DNA of 64,000 nt from Polaribacter sp. KT25b (GTDB taxonomy: Bacteria > Bacteroidota > Bacteroidia > Flavobacteriales > Flavobacteriaceae), in assembly GCF_900105145.1 (NCBI RefSeq), contig NZ_LT629752.1, forward strand, positions 1,894,001 through 1,958,000, read 5' to 3'. The notes under the pieces were generated by a model. That model was not told where the DNA came from. It searched no databases and was given only the letters and a program-made list of their open reading frames with translations. The translations under genes were made by a program, and so were the position numbers. Positions 1,726-48,212 of this stretch are shown here, in pieces (within the stretch, counting starts at the first letter, position 1; the number at the start of each line of letters is the position of its first letter).

Positions 1726-1775
1726 AATATATAACTTTTATCCCGAAAGTTTTAATTGTTATAATGTTTTAAATC

Positions 1776-1936
1776 TAGGCAGGTCTCCTGGCTTGCGTCT
1801 TGTAATTGGCCTTCCCATCTAAATAAAGACAGTGACATAAAGATTAATTACAAGCTAATAGCTTACAGTTGCGGGAACAGCTTCGGTATTTATCCGAATT
1901 CCCTTTTAATTTGTTCTCAAAAAGAACAAAACCTTA
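1776..1936 (-). promoter_or_regulatory. Cobalamin riboswitch upstream of the btuB-like receptor
   Basis: On the minus strand the 5' part reads GGGAATTCGG, then the B12-box core GCTGTTCCCGCAACTGTAAG (complement of about 1862-1881), and the 3' part AGCCAGGAGACCTGCC (complement of about 1778-1793). These are conserved elements of the cobalamin riboswitch, in the right order and spacing. The RNA ends about 50 bases before the receptor start codon, so control by hiding the translation start or by termination is plausible. No second copy was seen in front of cobU. Confidence 0.93.
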
Positions 1937-2220
1937 ATTTTCGGTAAATGTAGATTATTTTTAAGTATTACAATACTTAAAATTTATAAATTTTTGAGCT
2001 AATTCATTAAAATTTCAAAATACTCTGGATGAATCATTTTAGCCAAACATTCTATTCCGTTTACTAAAGCATTTGCAGAAGATTGCGTTAACATATCTAA
2101 ATCTGCAATAAATACATTTCCCTTTTTTACTGCTTTAAATGTTTTTCATTCTGGTTTACTTTCTAAAAACTTCATATCCTCTAAAGTTCTAGAAATTCCA
2201 TAACCTATACTTTCCTGAAA

Positions 2221-17561: not shown

Positions 17562-17706
17562 GTAAAAAACGTTTATTCGTTTAAGAGTTTAATTGTTTAT
17601 TATTTGGGCGTTTTAACAGGCTTTACGTTATATCTTTTTATGAAAAATAAAAAGGATGCCACTTCAATCCCTAACGCAAGCTTGTTAAACAACTTTTACC
17701 TTATTC

Positions 17707-41028: not shown

Positions 41029-41895
41029 ATGCAAACAACAAAACTTAGTAATGAAAGTATTTTACCTCTTACCTGTTCTAGATCTGGATCTTGTTGTTTT
41101 GGCAAAGCAGTAATGTTAAATCCTTGGGAATTATTATGTTTTAGTAAAGAAAAGAAAATTACACCAAGAGAATTTCGTGATTTGTATTGCGAATTTGGTG
41201 GAATTCAATTACTTTTTGATGGTAAACCCGATAAAAAAGGACAAAAAGCATGCAGCCAATATATTGATAATTTTGGTTGCAGTGTGCACGAAGGTCGCCC
41301 ATTAGCGTGTCGTTTATATCCTTTAGGACGTAAAATTCAATTTGATAAAGCCCATTATATTTACGAAGGTGAAACTTTTCCATGTTTAACAGATTGCGCA
41401 GAAGTTTTAGATTTACCAAAACTTAGTGTTGGTAAATATTTACAAGGTCAGGAAGCAGAACCTTTTGAAAAGGCACAAGATGAATATTTAATAATCATGC
41501 AAAATATTGCTGATATCGCTTTTGAATTATTGTTAGATACTGGCTTATCTGCTTCTGGAGATACCAAAACACTTCCTTTATGGAGAGAGATTGGCAACGA
41601 ACTTCCAGAAATTTTAGCAGAAAGAATTGGTAAAGAATGGATCGACTTATTAATGATTCCAGAAATTACTAATGAAATTGAAAATCCAATTACTTTTGCA
41701 CATAAACACAACGATTTATTACTTTTAAAAGCGCAAGAAAAATTTGGAAGTATACAAACACTTCAAGAAGTTCATGATGCTTCTGTTTTAATAATGGCTG
41801 TAGCTTTGCATTTGGCTAGAGGTTTAGGCGCAAATCCAAAAGAAATTGCTGAACATTTTATAGAAATTGCAAAAAGCCATGGCGCTCAAGAATAG
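41029..41895 (+). CDS. YkgJ-family cysteine-cluster protein
   Basis: The 288-residue protein has the Cys-cluster domain near the N-terminus: TCSRSGSCCFGKAVML, then KACSQYIDNFGCSVHEGRPL with ACRLYPLG. This pattern of about eight cysteines, probably binding zinc or an iron-sulfur cluster, defines the family. The C-terminal 170 residues are helical with no recognised domain. Function is unknown. Confidence 0.85.
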   Translation: MQTTKLSNESILPLTCSRSGSCCFGKAVMLNPWELLCFSKEKKITPREFRDLYCEFGGIQLLFDGKPDKKGQKACSQYIDNFGCSVHEGRPLACRLYPLGRKIQFDKAHYIYEGETFPCLTDCAEVLDLPKLSVGKYLQGQEAEPFEKAQDEYLIIMQNIADIAFELLLDTGLSASGDTKTLPLWREIGNELPEILAERIGKEWIDLLMIPEITNEIENPITFAHKHNDLLLLKAQEKFGSIQTLQEVHDASVLIMAVALHLARGLGANPKEIAEHFIEIAKSHGAQE

Positions 41896-41919
41896 TGTTC
41901 TATTAAATTGATAAATACA

Positions 41920-41970
41920 AAAATGCAGACTTAAATTTTTCACTTAGAAAAAAATGAGTCTGCATTTAAT
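41920..41970. terminator. Bidirectional terminator between convergent genes
   Basis: AAATGCAGACT pairs with AGTCTGCATTT, and further inside TTTTTCACTT pairs loosely with the A-rich stretch. It lies between the ends of the YkgJ-family gene and the minus-strand PLP-enzyme gene. Confidence 0.75.
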
Positions 41971-41990
41971 ACTAAAAAATAAATATAGTT

Positions 41991-44063
41991 TTAATTTAAT
42001 ATTTGAGGATTGGTAAGAATTAATTCTATTTTTTTAATAATTACAGTAATTTCACTCATTTGTGCTTCAATATTTCTAAAATAAAGGCTAATATCTCTAT
42101 TTACCCAACTTTCTGATATAACTCTTGCTCCCAAACTAATTCGTAATACAGCACTTTGTGTATCATTATCAAACATTACATTTACAGCTTGCCCAATATG
42201 ACATTTTTGAGCTGCAAGTCTAATAATTTCTAAAGACGAACCTTCAAACTGATTCGAAATGTCTGTATTTAATAAAACATATAATTTTTTTACACAATCT
42301 ACAGAAAGAACTTCTTTATCATTTAAAATGAAAAAAGGAAAAATAGTACGAATATTTCTAATACCAAATTCTTTTGCTTCATATAGATTTTCATTGATTT
42401 CGTCTCCAGAAAGTGGTGCTAAAAAAGAAGCTTCATTAATAGAATCGTTTACAAAATTACAAAACATTTCAATTCCCATATTTCTATATAAAATTGGCGT
42501 TTTATAATATCTTTCCATTTCTACAATAGCGGCTTTCCAACGCATATTAGAACCATAATTAAATCCGTCGGATAAATCTTTAGAACAAAACCAAGATACT
42601 GGCCAATCTGAATGATTGTAATATTTATTTAATCCTTCTGGTAAAATATTTTTTACAGATTTAACTAATTTACTCACACTTTCAGGAAAAATTAATGCAC
42701 CCGAATAAGGAGGACCTGTAAAGTATTTACTACCTGTAATACTTACAATATATCCTTTTTGTAAATAGTTTTGAATATCTAAAGGATCTAATCGAAGTTG
42801 TGCTGCATCAACAATAACTTGTAGCGACAAATCTTCTAGCGTATTCAAATTTTCAAGCATATTTTCACTTGGAGATTGATATCCTAATTTAGAATGATCC
42901 ATAACATGTAGTACAATATGCCTGCCTAATTCATTCATTTTAGAAATTGCATTGTAAACTTCTGTATCTAATTGAGGCGTGGATTTTAATTGCCCGTTTT
43001 CATCTCTAAACGGAATTTTAATCAAATCGATATCTCTAAATCCTTCAATTTTTTCTCCTTTTTTAGCAGGATAATTTAGTGCTGTATTGTTTTCAAAATG
43101 ACAACCTTTTAAAGCGGCTGGAACACCACTACCTGTTTCATCAGAAGCAACTAAAACATGTGTAATATCTTTATCTGTAACAATTTGAGTTATCGCGGCT
43201 ACTTGAAGCGAAGAATCTGTACCTGAAGGAGAAAAAATTATTTCACAACCATTATTTAATTTAAATATACTTTTTATACTATTTTTTAAAGATTCAGAAA
43301 AGTCAATTGCTGTATTTTTAAATCCATTTTTTAAGCTTTCTTTAATTAAAATGCTTCTGGTTTTGTCTGATTTATCAAAAGCAAAATTAGAAACACTTGT
43401 TGCTGTTGATGATGCAAAAGTAAATGCTTCTGGTCTAGGAAAAGGTCTACAGCCATATTTATTTAACAAATCGATTTCATCAATATTTAACCTTAAATCT
43501 CCACCAGACATTAATAAATATTCAGTTGGTTTTGCCAGATTATCAATAATAGGCTTCCAGGATTTTTTAAACACTTCATTAACAGAATTTATACCGTGTA
43601 TTGCTTCTAAACCTTCATGCTTTAATAAAGAATCGGCATTTAAGCCTTCTTCATTTTTAATTAAATCAATTAAAAAATAATCAAGGTTTTCTAACTTTTC
43701 TTTATCATTTTTAGTTAATAATTTATAAAAAATTCTAGTTACTTCTAATGCTGCAATATTACATAATGCTGTAGCGTGTTTTTCGCCATTTAAAGCTTTA
43801 TACCAAAGCTGCCATTCTATACCATAACGTAAATAAACCAATGCTAAAACAGGATTTTTTAAATATAACGTACCAATTAAAATTGATTTATTAGGTTCAA
43901 TTTTAAATAGATCTGGTGTACTACTAGAAGTAATAATATTTATGTTATTTACTTTTGGTACGGTGTTAAATCTTTTTAAAACGTGAACCAGATAGTTCAC
44001 ATTTTCTTTTTCAAATAAGCTTGTTCTTTTGTATTGATCTTCAATAGAAATATTATTCTTCAT
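41991..44063 (-). CDS. Large PLP-dependent (fold type I) enzyme with unrecognised N-terminal domain
   Basis: The 690-residue protein has an N-terminal part of about 200 residues that I do not recognise (VYLRYGIEWQLWYKALNGEK). A fold-type-I PLP domain follows, with the cofactor-phosphate loop IIFSPSGTDSSL (about 276-287), the cofactor aspartate Asp419 in VIVDAAQLRLDP and the probable Schiff-base lysine Lys446 in ITGSKYFTGPPYSGAL. The C-terminal part (about 560-690) fits the small domain. The closest families are class V aminotransferases and decarboxylases. The reaction is unknown. It is the last gene of the array begun by the DUF134 gene, after a 172-base gap containing a palindrome. Confidence 0.75.
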   Translation of the reverse strand: MKNNISIEDQYKRTSLFEKENVNYLVHVLKRFNTVPKVNNINIITSSSTPDLFKIEPNKSILIGTLYLKNPVLALVYLRYGIEWQLWYKALNGEKHATALCNIAALEVTRIFYKLLTKNDKEKLENLDYFLIDLIKNEEGLNADSLLKHEGLEAIHGINSVNEVFKKSWKPIIDNLAKPTEYLLMSGGDLRLNIDEIDLLNKYGCRPFPRPEAFTFASSTATSVSNFAFDKSDKTRSILIKESLKNGFKNTAIDFSESLKNSIKSIFKLNNGCEIIFSPSGTDSSLQVAAITQIVTDKDITHVLVASDETGSGVPAALKGCHFENNTALNYPAKKGEKIEGFRDIDLIKIPFRDENGQLKSTPQLDTEVYNAISKMNELGRHIVLHVMDHSKLGYQSPSENMLENLNTLEDLSLQVIVDAAQLRLDPLDIQNYLQKGYIVSITGSKYFTGPPYSGALIFPESVSKLVKSVKNILPEGLNKYYNHSDWPVSWFCSKDLSDGFNYGSNMRWKAAIVEMERYYKTPILYRNMGIEMFCNFVNDSINEASFLAPLSGDEINENLYEAKEFGIRNIRTIFPFFILNDKEVLSVDCVKKLYVLLNTDISNQFEGSSLEIIRLAAQKCHIGQAVNVMFDNDTQSAVLRISLGARVISESWVNRDISLYFRNIEAQMSEITVIIKKIELILTNPQILN

Positions 44064-44078
44064 AAGTGCTTTACGTTA

Positions 44079-44103
44079 AAAATGTTCAAAAAAAGAACAT
44101 TTT
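44079..44103. promoter_or_regulatory. Palindrome (AAAATGTTC-N7-GAACATTTT) before the PLP-enzyme gene
   Basis: Perfect 9-bp arms with a 7-base A/T spacer lie 16-40 bases upstream of the start codon on the minus strand. It could be an operator of an internal promoter or, because T residues follow, a weak terminator or attenuator hairpin. Confidence 0.55.
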
Positions 44104-44235
44104 GCTAAAATAAGAATGTTTTACAACACTATTAAATTCTTTAAAAATTTATAGCTTTTTTTACTATAAAACTTAAAATAGTATGTAAAAATTTTCAAAT
44201 TGTATTTTTTTAATTATTTATTAGGATTATTTTAT

Positions 44236-45018
44236 TTAAAAATTTAAAATCATGCCTGTTTTTACTTGTTCAATATGAAATACTTCATTAAAAGCAACCA
44301 GAGCAGGAAACTGAGTGCAATGCGATGGATATATTTTTTTTATATTTTTTTCTTTTAAATATTTGATAGTTTCTTGTGTCTGTAAATTGTTCTGTTTTAA
44401 ATGAAAACCGCCAATAACAGCTTTTACATTTTTAATTTTTGTTACTTTACAAGCATACTCAATAATATTACAAACACCCGCGTGAGAGCATCCGGTAATT
44501 ACTATAATTTCATTATTTTGAATAACAACAATTGCAGAATCGTCTTTTACTATATCGGGTTGTCCTAATTTATCAGAAAAAGTAGTTTCTTTTGCTTCAA
44601 AGTCATTTACTTTAGGTATTTCTCCCAAAAAAATAATATTGTCTGATAAATAATAAGGTCTTTTAGATAGAATTAATGTAAACTTTTTCTCTATTTCCTT
44701 TTTACTTAATTTAAGTCCAATATTTACATCCTCTTTTTGTCTATATCGTTTCATAAAAACATTAGGATGCGTTATTAGTGTTTTATTGCTGATGTATTCT
44801 AATCCATTTCCATGATCCCAATGTCCGTGACTTAAAACCACCGTTTCCACTTCTTGTTGAATATCAATACCTAATTTTTGTGCATTTATAAGAAAAACAT
44901 CCGTAGCACCTGTATCAAACAAAAATTTTTCTTTTTCATTTTCAATTAAATAAGACAATCCATGTTCTGCAAGAAATCCAGATCCTGCACAATTTTCTGT
45001 TAAAACAGTTAGTTTCAT
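44236..45018 (-). CDS. Metallo-beta-lactamase-fold hydrolase, dihydropterin-synthase-like
   Basis: The 260-residue protein opens LTVLTENCAGSGFLAEHGLS, typical of the MBL group annotated as dihydropterin-type (RFA-P/methanopterin) synthases of anaerobes and archaea. Metal ligands are visible in VLSHGHWDHGNGL, GCSHAGVCNI and IGGFHL, with SHCTQFPA near the end. The true reaction of this subgroup is unsettled. It overlaps the thioesterase gene by four bases (ATGA), so the two are translationally coupled. A pterin- or GTP-derived substrate would fit the ribA two genes upstream. Confidence 0.85.
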   Translation of the reverse strand: MKLTVLTENCAGSGFLAEHGLSYLIENEKEKFLFDTGATDVFLINAQKLGIDIQQEVETVVLSHGHWDHGNGLEYISNKTLITHPNVFMKRYRQKEDVNIGLKLSKKEIEKKFTLILSKRPYYLSDNIIFLGEIPKVNDFEAKETTFSDKLGQPDIVKDDSAIVVIQNNEIIVITGCSHAGVCNIIEYACKVTKIKNVKAVIGGFHLKQNNLQTQETIKYLKEKNIKKIYPSHCTQFPALVAFNEVFHIEQVKTGMILNF

Positions 45019-45434
45019 ACAACATTAGTTTTAAACTTAGTTATCAATATTTTTTCAATAAAAGTTGGAATATTCTTTGGCAAACGAGAATCAATATCAA
45101 CAAAAACAACTGTTGATTTTGATTTATTTAAAAGTATGTTTTGTTCATTTCTAATTTCAAATTCGAAACTGAAACGAACTTTTGGCATTTCTTTGATAGT
45201 TGTTTTTATGGTGATTAATTCGTCAAAATGAGCTGGTTTTTTATATTTAATATCAAAAGAAATTACTGGTAACATAATATTATGCTCTTCTAATATTACT
45301 TCATCTAAACCCAATTTTCTTAGTAATTCATTACGAGATTGATGACAATATGTAACATAATTTGCATGATACACATAGCCCATTTTATCTACTTCACCAT
45401 AACGAGGTCTTAATTGAAAAACATCAGTTATCAT
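45015..45434 (-). CDS. Hot-dog-fold acyl-CoA thioesterase (4HBT/YbgC family)
   Basis: The 139-residue protein has the 4HBT core RYGEVDKMGYVYHANYVTYC with the catalytic aspartate, then FDIKYKKPAHFDELITIKT, as in YbgC/FadM. It would hydrolyse an acyl-CoA or acyl-carrier thioester. It overlaps ribA by 11 bases upstream and the MBL gene by four bases downstream, which argues for a linked function instead of general lipid metabolism. Confidence 0.9.
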   Translation of the reverse strand: MITDVFQLRPRYGEVDKMGYVYHANYVTYCHQSRNELLRKLGLDEVILEEHNIMLPVISFDIKYKKPAHFDELITIKTTIKEMPKVRFSFEFEIRNEQNILLNKSKSTVVFVDIDSRLPKNIPTFIEKILITKFKTNVV

Positions 45435-46059
45435 AACAATTATTTACTTGTTTTTCTTTACTAAGTTGATGTCCCATCTGCTTTTCTTTAGTATCTAAAT
45501 AATTTTTATTAAATGAATTTGATGGAATTATTAATGGAGTACGATCAATAACTTGAATTCCGTTTTCTTCTAAACCAATAATTTTTTCTGGATTATTTGT
45601 TAACAAATTCACTTTTTGAATGCTTAGCTTAGAGAGAATTTCGGTTCCTATTTGATAATCTCTTTCATCCGCAGCAAAACCCAAATGCACATTTGCTTCA
45701 ATAGTATTCATGCCTAATTCTTGTAATTTATAAGCTTTCATTTTATTCATAAGCCCAATGCCTCTACCCTCTTGTTGTAAATACACGATAATTCCGCTGC
45801 CATTTTTCTCAATTAAATTCATAGCTTCAATTAACTGATCTCCGCAATCGCACCTTAAAGAACCAAACAAATCGCCAGTTGCACAAGCGGAATGAATACG
45901 AGTTAAAACAGTTTCATTTGCTTTAAAATATCCTTTAATAAGTGCCATATGCTCTAAACCACTTTCTTTTTCTTGAAATGGAATTAATTCAAAATGACCA
46001 TATTTAGTAGGAAGTTGTACTCTTTCTCCTTGTAAAATACTTATATTTTTATCAGACAT
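45424..46059 (-). CDS. ribA: GTP cyclohydrolase II, stand-alone
   Basis: RibA opens GTP to diaminohydroxy-ribosylamino-pyrimidinone phosphate, formate and pyrophosphate, the first step of riboflavin synthesis. The 211-residue protein has the zinc-binding motif RIHSACATGDLFGSLRCDCG and the catalytic LQQEGRGIGLMNK. It lacks the RibB (DHBP synthase) domain that is fused to it in most Bacteroidetes. The other genes around it are not riboflavin genes. It may therefore feed another GTP-derived product, which is an inference. Confidence 0.92.
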   Translation of the reverse strand: MSDKNISILQGERVQLPTKYGHFELIPFQEKESGLEHMALIKGYFKANETVLTRIHSACATGDLFGSLRCDCGDQLIEAMNLIEKNGSGIIVYLQQEGRGIGLMNKMKAYKLQELGMNTIEANVHLGFAADERDYQIGTEILSKLSIQKVNLLTNNPEKIIGLEENGIQVIDRTPLIIPSNSFNKNYLDTKEKQMGHQLSKEKQVNNCYDN

Positions 46060-46107
46060 TTTTTTATGATTTTATAACGAAAAACTGATACATTATTGTT
46101 ATAGAAA

Positions 46108-46497
46108 TTAATGATTACATGCGTGAGCATGACCTTTTGTGTGATTGTGATGATGTTTTACACAACTAATACCATTATCGGTAATTTTGCCTTCTACAAA
46201 TTCTAAAATAACATCTGCAGAATTACCTTTGCAACCTCTTATTACGCCAATGCCTGCATTATTTAATTTATGCATTGCACTATCGCCAATATTACCAGAT
46301 AGCATAAATGTAACACCTTCATTGGTAAGCGTGTTTATAATGTTTGATTTACAGCCACATTTGCCATCAGATTCTAATAATTGTAAATCTATAATTTCAT
46401 TTTTATCAGAAAACGAATAAATTTCATAGAATTTACAACGTCCAAAATGGTTTTCTATTTTATTGTCTTTTGTAATTGGAATTGCTATTTTTTTCAT
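46108..46497 (-). CDS. NifX/NifB-type (dinitrogenase iron-molybdenum cofactor) domain protein with His-rich tail
   Basis: The 129-residue protein is a single NifX/MTH1175-like domain. It opens IAIPITKDNKIENHFGRCKF, then GKCGCKSNIINTLTNEGVTF and LSGNIGDSAMHKLNNAGIGV. The last 15 residues are rich in His and Cys (CVKHHHNHTKGHAHACNH), suggesting metal binding. No nitrogenase genes are present; family members outside nitrogen fixers are common in anaerobes. Its ATG overlaps the stop of the upstream 59-codon gene. Confidence 0.88.
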   Translation of the reverse strand: MKKIAIPITKDNKIENHFGRCKFYEIYSFSDKNEIIDLQLLESDGKCGCKSNIINTLTNEGVTFMLSGNIGDSAMHKLNNAGIGVIRGCKGNSADVILEFVEGKITDNGISCVKHHHNHTKGHAHACNH

Positions 46498-46676
46498 TAT
46501 TTTAAAAAATTAGATGTTGTTATCTTTGTTTTATTATTATTATTTCTTCTTCCTTTTTTAAATGGTCTATTTATAGGATCTTCATTATTATCCGTTTTAG
46601 TTTTACGGCATTTTCCTAATTGCATTCCAGTTTTTGGACCTAATCCTTCAGGACCTTTATGATCAAAATTTGGCAT
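46497..46676 (-). CDS. 59-aa DUF5320-like small protein
   Basis: A short ORF starts at the ATG complement of 46674-46676, two bases after the DUF134 stop, and ends in TAA sharing an A with the next start. The product opens PNFDHKGPEGLGPKTGMQLG with K-C-R after it, matching the G-P-x-G-x-G-P-x-T-G pattern of DUF5320 proteins that accompany NifX-domain genes. The C-terminal half is Asn/Lys-rich. It is easily missed because of its size. Function unknown; a metal- or cluster-related role is a guess. Confidence 0.8.
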   Translation of the reverse strand: MPNFDHKGPEGLGPKTGMQLGKCRKTKTDNNEDPINRPFKKGRRNNNNKTKITTSNFLK

Positions 46677-46678
46677 TT

Positions 46679-47086
46679 TTATTCATTTAAATTTTCTAAT
46701 TCGTTTTTTTCATCCGAAGGACAGTCACCACAAATAGCGTCATCTTTAACACCATCAACTAATTTAAAACATGTTTTACATTTGTACCAATCTTTTTCAA
46801 ATTCGAAATCTCCACCTTTAATAAGTATCGATTTACCTTCTACAAATGCTTTACCAATTTTTTTTAAGGCGCTGTTATATATTCTAGTTAATGTTGGCCT
46901 TGAAACCTCCATCTTTTCAGCGGCAGCATCTTGAGATAGTTTATCATAAATAACTAACTTAACCGTTTCATATTCTTCAAATTGCATTACAATATGTTCT
47001 GTATCACAAAACCTAATTCCAAATGGTTTAAAACCTAACATTTTAGGAGGATGATCTACTTTTCTTTTCTTTTTTGGACGTGGCAT
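46679..47086 (-). CDS. DUF134-family putative DNA-binding regulator
   Basis: The 135-residue protein starts MPRPKKKRKV, the family hallmark. It has a sigma-like helix-turn-helix at about 48-90 (YDKLSQDAAAEKMEVSRPTL, TRIYNSALKKIGKAF). The C-terminal tail carries a possible zinc-binding C-x2-C...C-x2-C motif (YKCKTCFKLV, ICGDCPSDE). It is the first gene of the array and likely an autoregulator: a palindrome sits beside its promoter. The regulatory role is inferred. Confidence 0.88.
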   Translation of the reverse strand: MPRPKKKRKVDHPPKMLGFKPFGIRFCDTEHIVMQFEEYETVKLVIYDKLSQDAAAEKMEVSRPTLTRIYNSALKKIGKAFVEGKSILIKGGDFEFEKDWYKCKTCFKLVDGVKDDAICGDCPSDEKNELENLNE

Positions 47087-47136
47087 TTATCAAAAATTAA
47101 TACGATTATTTTAGTTCTATAAAATATAATCACAAA

Positions 47137-47144
47137 CAAAGGTA
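47137..47144 (-). promoter_or_regulatory. Candidate -7 box (TACCTTTG) of the DUF134 operon
   Basis: On the minus strand TACCTTTG fits the Bacteroidetes consensus TAnnTTTG and lies about 50 bases before the DUF134 start. No -33 TTG is visible at the normal distance, where the palindrome at 47145-47160 lies. Confidence 0.6.
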
Positions 47145-47160
47145 ATGAACTTACGTTCAT
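47145..47160. promoter_or_regulatory. Palindromic operator candidate ATGAAC-TTAC-GTTCAT
   Basis: A perfect 6-bp inverted repeat with 4-base spacer abuts the -7 box of the DUF134 operon and lies where RNA polymerase would bind. It is a good candidate for a repressor or autoregulator site. Confidence 0.65.
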
Positions 47161-47417
47161 AATCTAAAGATTTTTATTATAGTTTTTCATAAAATAAAGA
47201 AATAAGGAAGTAAACAAAAAAAATAAGCACTACAACATTGATTTAAAGTAAAATAACAAAATTGTATAAAACTGTAGATTATATCTTTTATTATGCTATA
47301 AATTTAGAATTATAGTGATAAAATTTATTTTTTATTTAATTTTTAAAAAAAACTTATATAAAAATGTAAGGTTTTATATTTTAGAACGATTATACTATCT
47401 ATCAATCAAAATAAACC

Positions 47418-48212
47418 ATGAAAAAAACATTTACTATTACCTTACTAGGGATTCTATTATTTGTAAGTTGTCAAAAACAAGTAAAAAAAGAAGTTGTTAC
47501 GAATGAAACTGAAAAAAAAGTTTTAATAACTAACTTTACTGAAAAAATAGAAATTGCACATAAAAAAGCTGAGTTTTTAAAGCATGAAGCAATTCAGTTT
47601 GATGCTTTTATAGAATTTGGAGGAAATGAAATTTTTAACGCAAACGTTACTATTTCTACTAATTCTGATATTGCTAAAATAACTTATAAAAATGGAGATG
47701 AAATCTATGTAAACAAAGAGAATATATTTGTATCTCCTAGCTTAAAAGACAATAAAGGAGTTCGTTTTCATGCTTATACCTGGGGATACTTTTTCTTATA
47801 TCCTTATAAATTAAGTGATAAAGGAACAAAATGGAATTATGATTTTAAAACAAAAGAAACAACCAATAATTTTGATGTTGCAAAACTAACTTTTGAAGCT
47901 AATATTGGTGATGCACCAGATGATTGGTATATTGTTTATACTAATAAAAATACTCATCTTCTAGAACATGTAGCATATATTGTTACTGCAGGAAAAACGA
48001 AAGAAGCTGCAGAAAAAGATCCTCATGCTATAAAATATGAGGATTATAAAATGATTGAAGAAATTCCGTTTGCAACAAATTGGGGTTATTATGGCTGGAA
48101 TATTGAGTCTGGTTTATCTGATAAAATAGGAAACGCAAAAATTACCAATATTCATTTTGTAGAAGGTTTTAGAAAAGACTTTTCTATTCCAGAAAATTAT
48201 ATTAAAAAGTAA
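47418..48212 (+). CDS. Lipoprotein of the DUF6503 type
   Basis: The 264-residue protein has a signal peptide and lipobox ending in a Cys near residue 19 (LLGILLFVSC). The remainder resembles the DUF6503 family, with KAEFLKHEAIQFDAFIEFGG, WGYFFLYPYKLSDKGTKW and DDWYIVYTNKNTHLLEHVAY. The fold is probably a lipocalin-like or LolA-like beta sheet; function unknown. A terminator follows 20 bases after the stop. Confidence 0.75.
   Translation: MKKTFTITLLGILLFVSCQKQVKKEVVTNETEKKVLITNFTEKIEIAHKKAEFLKHEAIQFDAFIEFGGNEIFNANVTISTNSDIAKITYKNGDEIYVNKENIFVSPSLKDNKGVRFHAYTWGYFFLYPYKLSDKGTKWNYDFKTKETTNNFDVAKLTFEANIGDAPDDWYIVYTNKNTHLLEHVAYIVTAGKTKEAAEKDPHAIKYEDYKMIEEIPFATNWGYYGWNIESGLSDKIGNAKITNIHFVEGFRKDFSIPENYIKK

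Follow-up and report, generated by a model that had tools for sequence, protein, structure and literature searches.

A seven-gene array in Polaribacter, apparently controlled by its own DUF134 protein, with a DNA site predictable from one residue

Introduction

The closest described counterparts of the array discussed here are the ORP clusters of Desulfovibrio. According to the sections of the source on which we draw, Orp3 and Orp4 are MinD-ferredoxin ATPases, Orp8 is a NifX-domain Mo-Cu protein, Orp9/MrpORP is a further member, and the orp operons are sigma54-controlled (PMC6345978). The same sections describe IssA, an iron-sulfur storage protein of the NifX family with a cationic tail (PMC6345978).

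Relatives of the array in Bacteroidota combine genes for DUF134, DUF5320 and NifX-domain proteins with those for two MinD-ferredoxin ATPases and a related MBL protein. In 31 of 80 related loci, MinD genes are located within 7 kb of the MBL gene on the same strand. A literature search revealed no paper on the seven-gene array of Polaribacter sp. KT25b and none on a DUF134 operator. What is new here is the palindrome in front of DUF134 genes and its prediction from a single residue of the recognition helix.

Genes of the array

The array consists of seven minus-strand open reading frames at positions 41991-47086 of the window, i.e., the whole stretch of 64,000 nucleotides that was analysed. From the DUF134 gene to the gene for a 690-aa protein, the successive spacings are 2 bp, a 1-bp overlap, 48 bp, an 11-bp overlap, a 4-bp overlap and 172 bp, in agreement with the tight packing reported in the first-pass annotation (gaps of at most 48 bases, and the seventh gene after 172). 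The names given there were judged by the curated cut-offs of Pfam and NCBIfam, and six of the seven were supported; 'PLP enzyme', for the 690-aa protein, found no support in these libraries.

The DUF134 protein (46679..47086; 135 aa) contains a helix-turn-helix (VSRPTLTRI) and, as seen in the alignment, a C-terminal Cys4 element (PF02001, 79.7 bits, cut-off 27). It is followed by a DUF5320 protein of 59 aa (46497..46676; PF17253, 34 bits, cut-off 27), which is fused to DUF134 in locus L080 and to NifX in L078 and L175, and by a NifX-domain (Nitro_FeMo-Co) protein (46108..46497; PF02579, 62.4 bits, cut-off 26.3) with a Cys/His-rich tail and a CGCKSN motif that varies among relatives in the alignment. 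Next come a stand-alone GTP cyclohydrolase II, RibA (45424..46059; PF00925, 215.2 bits, cut-off 23.3; PDB 2bz0, E 1.6e-57), a YbgC/FadM-type thioesterase (45015..45434; TIGR00051, 97.7 bits, cut-off 68.7; PDB 1s5u and 6fdg) and an MBL-fold hydrolase with the motifs HGHWDHG, GCSH and GGFH (44236..45018; PF00753, 40.3 bits, cut-off 22.7). The label 'dihydropterin (RFA-P) synthase-like' for the latter protein comes solely from the source annotation of its relatives. The last gene (41991..44063) encodes the 690-aa protein, in which the motifs PSGTD, DAAQLR and TGSK (Lys446) are found. An inverted repeat at 41921..41967 (pair I13), located 3' of the array, is a candidate terminator. No toxoflavin-type tailoring enzyme was found among the Pfam and NCBIfam names for the array genes. 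The NifX domain, the Cys motifs and the neighbouring genes suggest a metal/sulfur theme for the array.

Insertion and conservation

The array is flanked by a gene for a CxxCxxCC protein on the left (41029-41895) and a lipoprotein gene on the right (47418-48212). As these flanking genes adjoin each other in six of the ten congeners that have the right-hand one (empty sites L279-L284), the array can be recognized as an insertion, which extends approximately from 41896 to 47365, the right edge being approximate. The earlier impression that the set looks imported is borne out by these six empty sites and by its patchy distribution.

A common gene order, with the 690-aa gene always last, is found at 11 loci including the window; the possibility raised in the first-pass annotation that no relative would conserve the order can thus be dismissed. 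Since the set is found with like order and content in other genera and lies between two genes that are neighbours in six congeners, the array is more than a chance assembly: the seven genes are a real, transferable set. Its content varies. RibA is absent from 4 of the 11 arrays, the thioesterase also from 4 and MBL from 6, some relatives' arrays include a TrmO-like protein, and one locus is reduced to DUF134 and the 690-aa gene. The RibA-thioesterase-MBL block, overlapping in the window, is found again in L100 and L129 and, with one gene in between, in G437. Genome G428 deviates in both content and order, with DUF134, an MBL of 30% identity and NifX.

Among 397 genomes of the family, all eight with a close DUF134, spanning seven genera, also carry the 690-aa gene (hypergeometric 5e-12, kinship ignored). 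The two genes are unlinked in two of these eight genomes, and both are still retained. The 690-aa gene is present in 19 of the 397 genomes, 11 of which have no close DUF134. In a tree of 29 690-aa proteins with many poorly supported forks, the array-linked members are scattered over several branches, which reflects either a single origin followed by losses or repeated recruitment. Losses are favoured because TrmO-like remnants are present upstream of L179 and, as judged by eye, of L180.

The DUF134 operator

A palindrome, TGAACTTACGTTCA / TGAACGTAAGTTCA, at 47146..47159 is the candidate DUF134 operator. The pattern TGAACNTNNGTTCA occurs once in the 3.95-Mb genome, at this very position, and a reversed control pattern gave 0 matches. 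The palindrome precedes DUF134 in nine of nine genomes, i.e., the eight with close DUF134 and 690-aa gene plus G044; the eight of these other than KT25b contain 0-3 extra matches each, against 0-4 each for the reversed control. A second palindrome in G314 was considered as a second operator and rejected, as it resembles a terminator stem. Beside the palindrome lies the sequence TAnnTTTG (TACCTTTG; 47137..47144, minus strand), which we take to be a -7 box of the Bacteroidota-type promoter consensus. A sigma70 scan, with a model that is unsuited to Bacteroidota, gave 41 sites versus 38.4 expected.

When DUF134 loci were classed by the residue at position X of the recognition helix, SRxT(F/L/M)XR, each class was found to have its own motif. 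TGAAC-N4-GTTCA is present upstream in 27 of 31 loci of the T/S class (T 25/28, S 2/3), GAGAA-N2-TTCTC (TGAGAATATTCTCA) in 9 of 10 loci of the A class and TGAGC-N4-GCTCA (TGAGCATATGCTCA) in 8 of 40 loci of the G class. Not a single cross-over between helix class and motif was observed, the shuffle expectation being at most 0.015 loci per class, and all five T- and A-class loci that were added after the rule had been noticed conform to it (L239, L261, L266, L271, L258). A half-and-half site, TGAACATATGCTCA, is present at L269 of the G class. All 29 G-class loci of family f31 are devoid of the three motifs, and so are eight further loci (T 3, S 1, A 1, Q 3). Judged from these sequence patterns, it appears that the array is controlled by the DUF134 protein it encodes, via a DNA site that is predictable from one DUF134 residue. 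DUF134 would then be the regulator of the array, and a candidate autoregulator, rather than merely one gene among seven.

The array RibA and riboflavin synthesis

The array RibA is canonical: Cys59, Cys70 and Cys72, which we take to bind zinc, and Tyr110 and Arg133, presumably catalytic, are all present. Besides this protein, the genome of KT25b encodes one other RibA-like protein, RibBA, in whose RibA domain neither the catalytic Tyr nor any of the three zinc cysteines is present. This cyclohydrolase domain is degenerate in all 26 proteins examined from the genus. Nevertheless, RibD and RibH are retained (each above cut-off in 56 of 58), including in congeners without an array-type RibA. As these congeners have the same type of RibBA together with RibD and RibH, riboflavin synthesis in the genus is independent of the array RibA. 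The earlier caveat, that this RibA might simply serve riboflavin synthesis if a normal RibAB gene were absent, has a mixed outcome: the host RibBA is not normal, yet the genus evidently makes do with it. In KT25b itself, the array RibA may feed riboflavin synthesis.

The 690-aa protein

As far as its motifs can tell, the 690-aa protein probably belongs to the fold-type-I PLP enzymes, in a family that is not catalogued. The name 'PLP enzyme' is used because PSGTD, DxxQLR and TGSK, which are invariant in the alignments, occur together with two database names: 2 of 120 listed homologues are called 'Aminotransferase class V domain-containing' and 'Selenocysteine lyase'. The family comprises 743 proteins at E ≤0.001 (7997 scored). 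The protein and its relatives gave no match in Pfam or NCBIfam, including to the class V aminotransferase family profiles. Against the PDB, nothing was found below E 0.09 with the single sequence and nothing at E ≤10 with two profiles; with the family, searches of PDB, Pfam and NCBIfam yielded a best E of 0.03 or worse, to unrelated families only. Comparisons with SufS/CsdA/NifS, threonine aldolase, cysteine synthase and a DegT-type aminotransferase were likewise not significant. Directly upstream of the gene lies an inverted repeat, AAAATGTTC-N7-GAACATTTT (44079..44103, minus strand), as in relatives: inverted repeats were found in 16 of 27 upstream sequences, where 1.65 were expected.

Discussion

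It is likely that DUF134 proteins are one-operon autoregulators in which helix residue X sets the operator (T/S, A and G classes) and which run interchangeable metal/sulfur cassettes, one of these having gained GTP cyclohydrolase II and a PLP-type 690-aa enzyme of an uncatalogued family. For the array as a whole, we lean slightly towards one horizontally moved, self-regulated cassette made up of the DUF134 regulator, a metal/sulfur part and interchangeable cargo. A DUF134 dimer would bind TGAACGTAAGTTCA, overlapping the array promoter, and keep its own operon repressed; release would come with a metal or redox signal, for which the Cys4 element may be the sensor. DUF5320 and NifX would form the metal/sulfur-binding part, common to ORP-type clusters of anaerobes, from which the array could have been derived as a metal/sulfur-linked response operon. 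RibA, the thioesterase, MBL, the TrmO-like protein of some relatives and the 690-aa enzyme would be swappable cargo for one condition, and the putative chemistry of these enzymes would not represent successive steps of a pathway; the absence of RibA from 4 of 11 arrays argues for such modularity. The array RibA might yield a flavin precursor from GTP, by-passing the degenerate domain of the host RibBA.

A linear GTP-derived pathway, as proposed in the first-pass annotation, would have RibA open GTP to a diaminopyrimidine, which is processed by MBL and the thioesterase, methylated by the TrmO-like protein in some relatives and modified by the 690-aa PLP enzyme through addition or removal of an amino or carboxyl group, with NifX and DUF5320 loading the metal of a new cofactor. 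The overlapping and recurrent RibA-thioesterase-MBL block would fit such a pathway, as would a RibA that is additional to the host gene and has intact catalytic residues. However, the pathway is weakened in that 4 of the 11 arrays do not themselves encode RibA, its first step, and others are without MBL or the thioesterase; one array comprises nothing but DUF134 and the 690-aa gene, and most family genomes with the 690-aa gene (11/19) have no close DUF134. We therefore do not retain this pathway as the main reading and consider it rather unlikely. Somewhat less probable still is that RibA merely restores or boosts riboflavin synthesis because the cyclohydrolase II domain of the host RibBA is not functional; the rest of the array would then be hitch-hikers or an unrelated stress set. 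The lack of zinc cysteines and catalytic Tyr in the only other RibA-like protein of KT25b speaks for it, but congeners without an array-type RibA share this RibBA type and keep RibD and RibH, and RibA is absent from 4 of 11 arrays.

TetR-type operators of the shape TGAAC-N4-GTTCA exist, and the palindrome might serve an unlinked TetR-family regulator, DUF134 having a different role. This would leave unexplained why the motif tracks the DUF134 recognition helix over three classes without cross-overs, and the palindrome occurs only once in the genome; we regard it as improbable. A true ORP complex, in which NifX with a Mo-Cu-S cluster acts with MinD-type ATPases in cell division, was rejected and is given hardly any credence. 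DUF134, DUF5320, NifX and MBL are indeed common to MinD-bearing clusters, but MinD-type ATPases with ferredoxin motifs are absent from the window array, none was noticed in the gene content of the 11 arrays, and the genome of KT25b gave two weak partial matches (E 1e-4) to one representative.

If the cassette is indeed self-regulated, DUF134, a domain of unknown function, gains a DNA target and a role that can be put to the test. As it precedes many uncharacterised metal/sulfur clusters, these would become switchable and their signal could be sought. The array also leads to a large enzyme family for which no profile exists, and the loss of the zinc site from RibBA in all 26 genus proteins raises the question of how GTP is opened for riboflavin there.

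Comparison with known systems

In so far as the ORP clusters are covered by the sections cited above, the array resembles them in having a NifX-domain protein, Orp8-like at the domain level; it differs in lacking MinD ATPases, in adding RibA, the thioesterase and the 690-aa enzyme, and in having a palindrome overlapping a -7 box where the orp operons are sigma54-controlled. With IssA, as described there, the array NifX has in common that one NifX-type domain is followed by a special tail at the C-terminus; in the array protein, this tail is Cys/His-rich instead of cationic. The array RibA matches E. coli RibA (2bz0) over residues 13-201 of 211 and is alike in all catalytic residues named, whereas it is encoded in the array, away from riboflavin genes. 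The array MBL is alike by profile to 2p4z, 3h3e and 7dck (E 1e-40 to 1e-25), nearly over the full length for 2p4z and 3h3e. Finally, the phosphate loop, DxxQ and TGSK of the class V aminotransferase/cysteine desulfurase fold (SufS, CsdA) are in register with the 690-aa family in a local, non-significant profile comparison (probability 0.1%), and the 690-aa protein differs from this fold by an extra N-terminal domain of ~175 aa and by having no library match.

Organization and Conservation of the Array

The window occupies bases 1894001-1958000 of a single-contig genome of 3.95 Mb. On its minus strand lie the seven array genes (47086 to 41991), in precisely the layout given in the first-pass annotation. 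Six of the products pass curated cut-offs, i.e., DUF134, DUF5320, the NifX domain, GTP cyclohydrolase II (RibA), YbgC/FadM thioesterase (TE) and the MBL fold; the seventh is a protein of 690 aa. The window also contains a cobalamin riboswitch (1761-1951, minus strand, 108.8 bits) and a Flavo-1 RNA (17610-17686, minus strand, 53.9 bits).

The idea that the array is a conserved unit was borne out: at eleven loci, including the window, array genes precede the 690-aa gene on the same strand, and their order is identical in all eleven. DUF134, DUF5320, NifX, RibA, TE and MBL all precede it in the window, in Winogradskyella (L078, DUF5320 and NifX fused), in a Flavobacteriaceae MAG (L079, MBL in two ORFs) and in Lutibacter (L080, DUF134 and DUF5320 fused). 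L079 and L080 additionally contain a TrmO-like gene, named after a homologue in locus L087 (PF01980). The other versions are shorter: DUF134, DUF5320, NifX and RibA in a genome of the same genus (L062, G044); DUF5320, RibA, MBL and TrmO-like in a Lutibacter MAG (L147); DUF134, NifX, RibA, TE and TrmO-like in L174 (G607); DUF134, fused DUF5320-NifX and TE in L175 (G447); DUF134, DUF5320 and TE in L176 (G606); DUF134, DUF5320 and NifX in L177 (G314); and DUF134 alone in L178 (G578). Judged by eye, a Tara MBL protein (P0157, 33336-34124) and a Tara 690-aa protein (P0043, 34121-36193) are encoded on equally long contigs (99548), and the lists of MBL and 690-aa homologues share eight contig sizes besides that of the own genome.

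At L179 and L180, 690-aa genes lack a linked array, and TrmO-like remnants lie immediately upstream (at L180 by eye), suggesting that these are eroded arrays. Genes named by eye as SQR-like, rhodanese, TauE-like, thioredoxin-like and thioredoxin reductase, i.e., with thiol or sulfur functions, are found beside the arrays of L079 (7.4-11.7 kb), L147 (11.4-12.2 kb) and L080 (11.6-13.0 kb).

The array is an insertion. The lipoprotein gene on its right flank has orthologues (63-81% identical) in ten congeners, in six of which (L279-L284) it directly adjoins the CxxCxxCC gene of the left flank, with a gap of 93-227 bp in the five read (L279-L283). At L285-L288, in the four remaining congeners, the 1.5 kb or less covered on either side shows no CxxCxxCC gene. 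By eye, the window still has a recognisable leader for the lipoprotein gene, which places the insertion at about 41896-47365. In G044 the site is empty, and this genome's own array is at another place. A repeat search over 41800-47500 yielded no obvious flanking direct repeat, no integrase was noticed by eye among the genes seen on either side, and the G+C content of the array falls inside the range of the window.

The 690-aa Protein

Neither Pfam nor NCBIfam has a family that the 690-aa protein matches. A single-sequence search of PDB sequences gave no match (best E 0.09), and two family profiles, built from 81 and 10 sequences, found nothing there at E up to 10. The family is large, with 743 of 7997 scored proteins reaching an E-value of 0.001 or less, and we take the organisms named among the 120 homologues listed to be all Flavobacteriaceae. 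The motifs PSG[TS]D, DxxQxR and TGSK are invariant in relatives down to 24% identity and look like a fold-type-I PLP site; against a cysteine desulfurase profile they are in register, without significance. Because the motifs fit and the profile comparison lacks significance, the earlier name "PLP enzyme" is considered likely rather than established. Shorter relatives (~470 aa) adjoin an undescribed gene of 345-371 aa in three genomes (L048, L050, L055).

Of 27 regions upstream of the 690-aa gene, 16 have an inverted repeat 31-57 nt before the gene, vs. 1.65 expected from mononucleotide shuffles. It is present in arrays (44079-44103 in the window) and before some stand-alone copies, the relatives being L078, L174-L178 and L068-L072, and its stem sequence varies. 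RNA folding of the five leaders tested gave z-scores of -0.7 to -2.1.

DUF134 and Its Candidate Operator

Among 397 genomes of the family, 19 carry the 690-aa gene and 12 carry DUF134, which is at least 63% identical in eight. All eight also carry the 690-aa gene, as does one (G440) of the remaining four (33-44% identical). This co-occurrence, in eight genomes of seven genera, has a hypergeometric probability of 5e-12 with kinship ignored. The two genes are linked in six of the eight; in G620, DUF134, DUF5320, NifX, RibA and TE are together and the 690-aa gene is at a separate place, and in G428, DUF134, NifX and a 30%-identical MBL are together and the 690-aa gene is elsewhere. The converse fails, as 11 of the 19 genomes with the 690-aa gene have no close DUF134.

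Upstream of DUF134 in the window, the palindrome TGAACGTAAGTTCA abuts TACCTTTG, a Bacteroidota-type -7 box. The pattern TGAACNTNNGTTCA has one match in the own genome, upstream of DUF134, and the reversed control pattern none. It precedes DUF134 in nine of nine genomes (the eight with a close DUF134 and G044), each with 0 to 3 additional matches vs. 0 to 4 control matches. One additional match that was inspected resembled a terminator stem.

More distant DUF134 proteins are preceded by different palindromes. Loci whose HTH the pattern missed were removed, and the 84 different DUF134 loci that remained, each having 100 bp or more of upstream sequence, were classified by the amino acid at position X of the helix SRxT(F/L/M)XR. 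TGAAC-N4-GTTCA was found in 25 of 28 T-class and two of three S-class loci, GAGAA-N2-TTCTC in nine of ten A-class loci and TGAGC-N4-GCTCA in eight of 40 G-class loci; none of the three Q-class loci has a class motif. Shuffling (200 times) predicts at most 0.015 loci per class. No cross-class motif occurred in the 84 loci, and G-class L269 has a half-and-half site. Counted as 60%-identity clusters, the own-class motif is present in T 8/8, S/T 1/1, A 1/2, G 2/4 and Q 0/2. The rule was derived from the first locus set, and the later-fetched loci, held out for T and A, matched it in 4/4 and 1/1 cases, respectively; the G-class motif was derived from the later set itself and is outside this comparison. 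Eleven G-class loci (L255-L270) do not belong to family f31, and all eight G-class sites are among them; none of the three palindromes occurs in the 29 f31 loci (L224-L253 without L239). Several f31 genomes have two DUF134 matches each.

Pathway or Response Operon

The array RibA has all catalytic residues checked. The one other RibA-like gene of the own genome encodes a 381-aa RibBA. Its RibA domain (G000:C1:1463328-1463801, L077) lacks the catalytic Tyr and all three of the zinc cysteines, as in the 25 congeners (L009-L033) that complete the 26 RibBA extracted from 57 RibA-positive genomes (58 in the genus). RibD and RibH each exceed the cut-off in 56 of 58. Among the places listed, G000 (own genome), G044 and G050 have a stand-alone RibA in which the residue set is complete, and G004, G021 and G044 have a 170-aa variant that retains the cysteines and lacks the Tyr; other frames listed are RibBA-sized (376-409 aa). 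With RibD and RibH kept despite a degenerate RibBA in 26/26, riboflavin synthesis in the genus seems to proceed independently of the array. The earlier caveat, that a normal RibAB might be absent and the array RibA simply serve riboflavin synthesis, thus has evidence on both sides, being favored by the degenerate host RibBA and opposed by the retention of RibD and RibH in the genus.

DUF134 is present in 10 of 11 arrays and the 690-aa gene is constant. Because RibA, MBL and TE are missing independently of one another while these two remain, a response operon whose cargo is modular seems to us more likely than a fixed pathway, such as the GTP-derived small-molecule route originally proposed. 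In such an operon, DUF134 would repress the array, and a metal or redox signal perceived via its Cys4 element would relieve repression; NifX would bind metal-sulfur, and RibA would supply a flavin precursor.

Relation to ORP Clusters

Among 80 related-MBL loci listed, neighbors on the same strand within 7 kb were counted by BLAST to one representative each: MinD-ferredoxin ATPases 31, NifX 25, DUF134 23, TE 22, DUF5320 18, CoA-disulfide-reductase/rhodanese-type protein 15, radical SAM 12, TrmO-like 10, RibA 7, BtuR 6 and the 690-aa gene 4. Maribacter strain ANRC-HE7 has an ORP-like cluster (L137) in which RibA-MBL accompanies an A-class DUF134 and the A-class site; a 690-aa protein under that strain name (P0092) is encoded on a contig of different length. 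The related-MBL neighborhoods resemble the ORP clusters of Desulfovibrio (PMC6345978; PMC4672049). Unlike these clusters, the array lacks MinD proteins, and the own genome has none at a convincing score; judged from gene content, the array is therefore probably a derivative of ORP-type clusters rather than a member.
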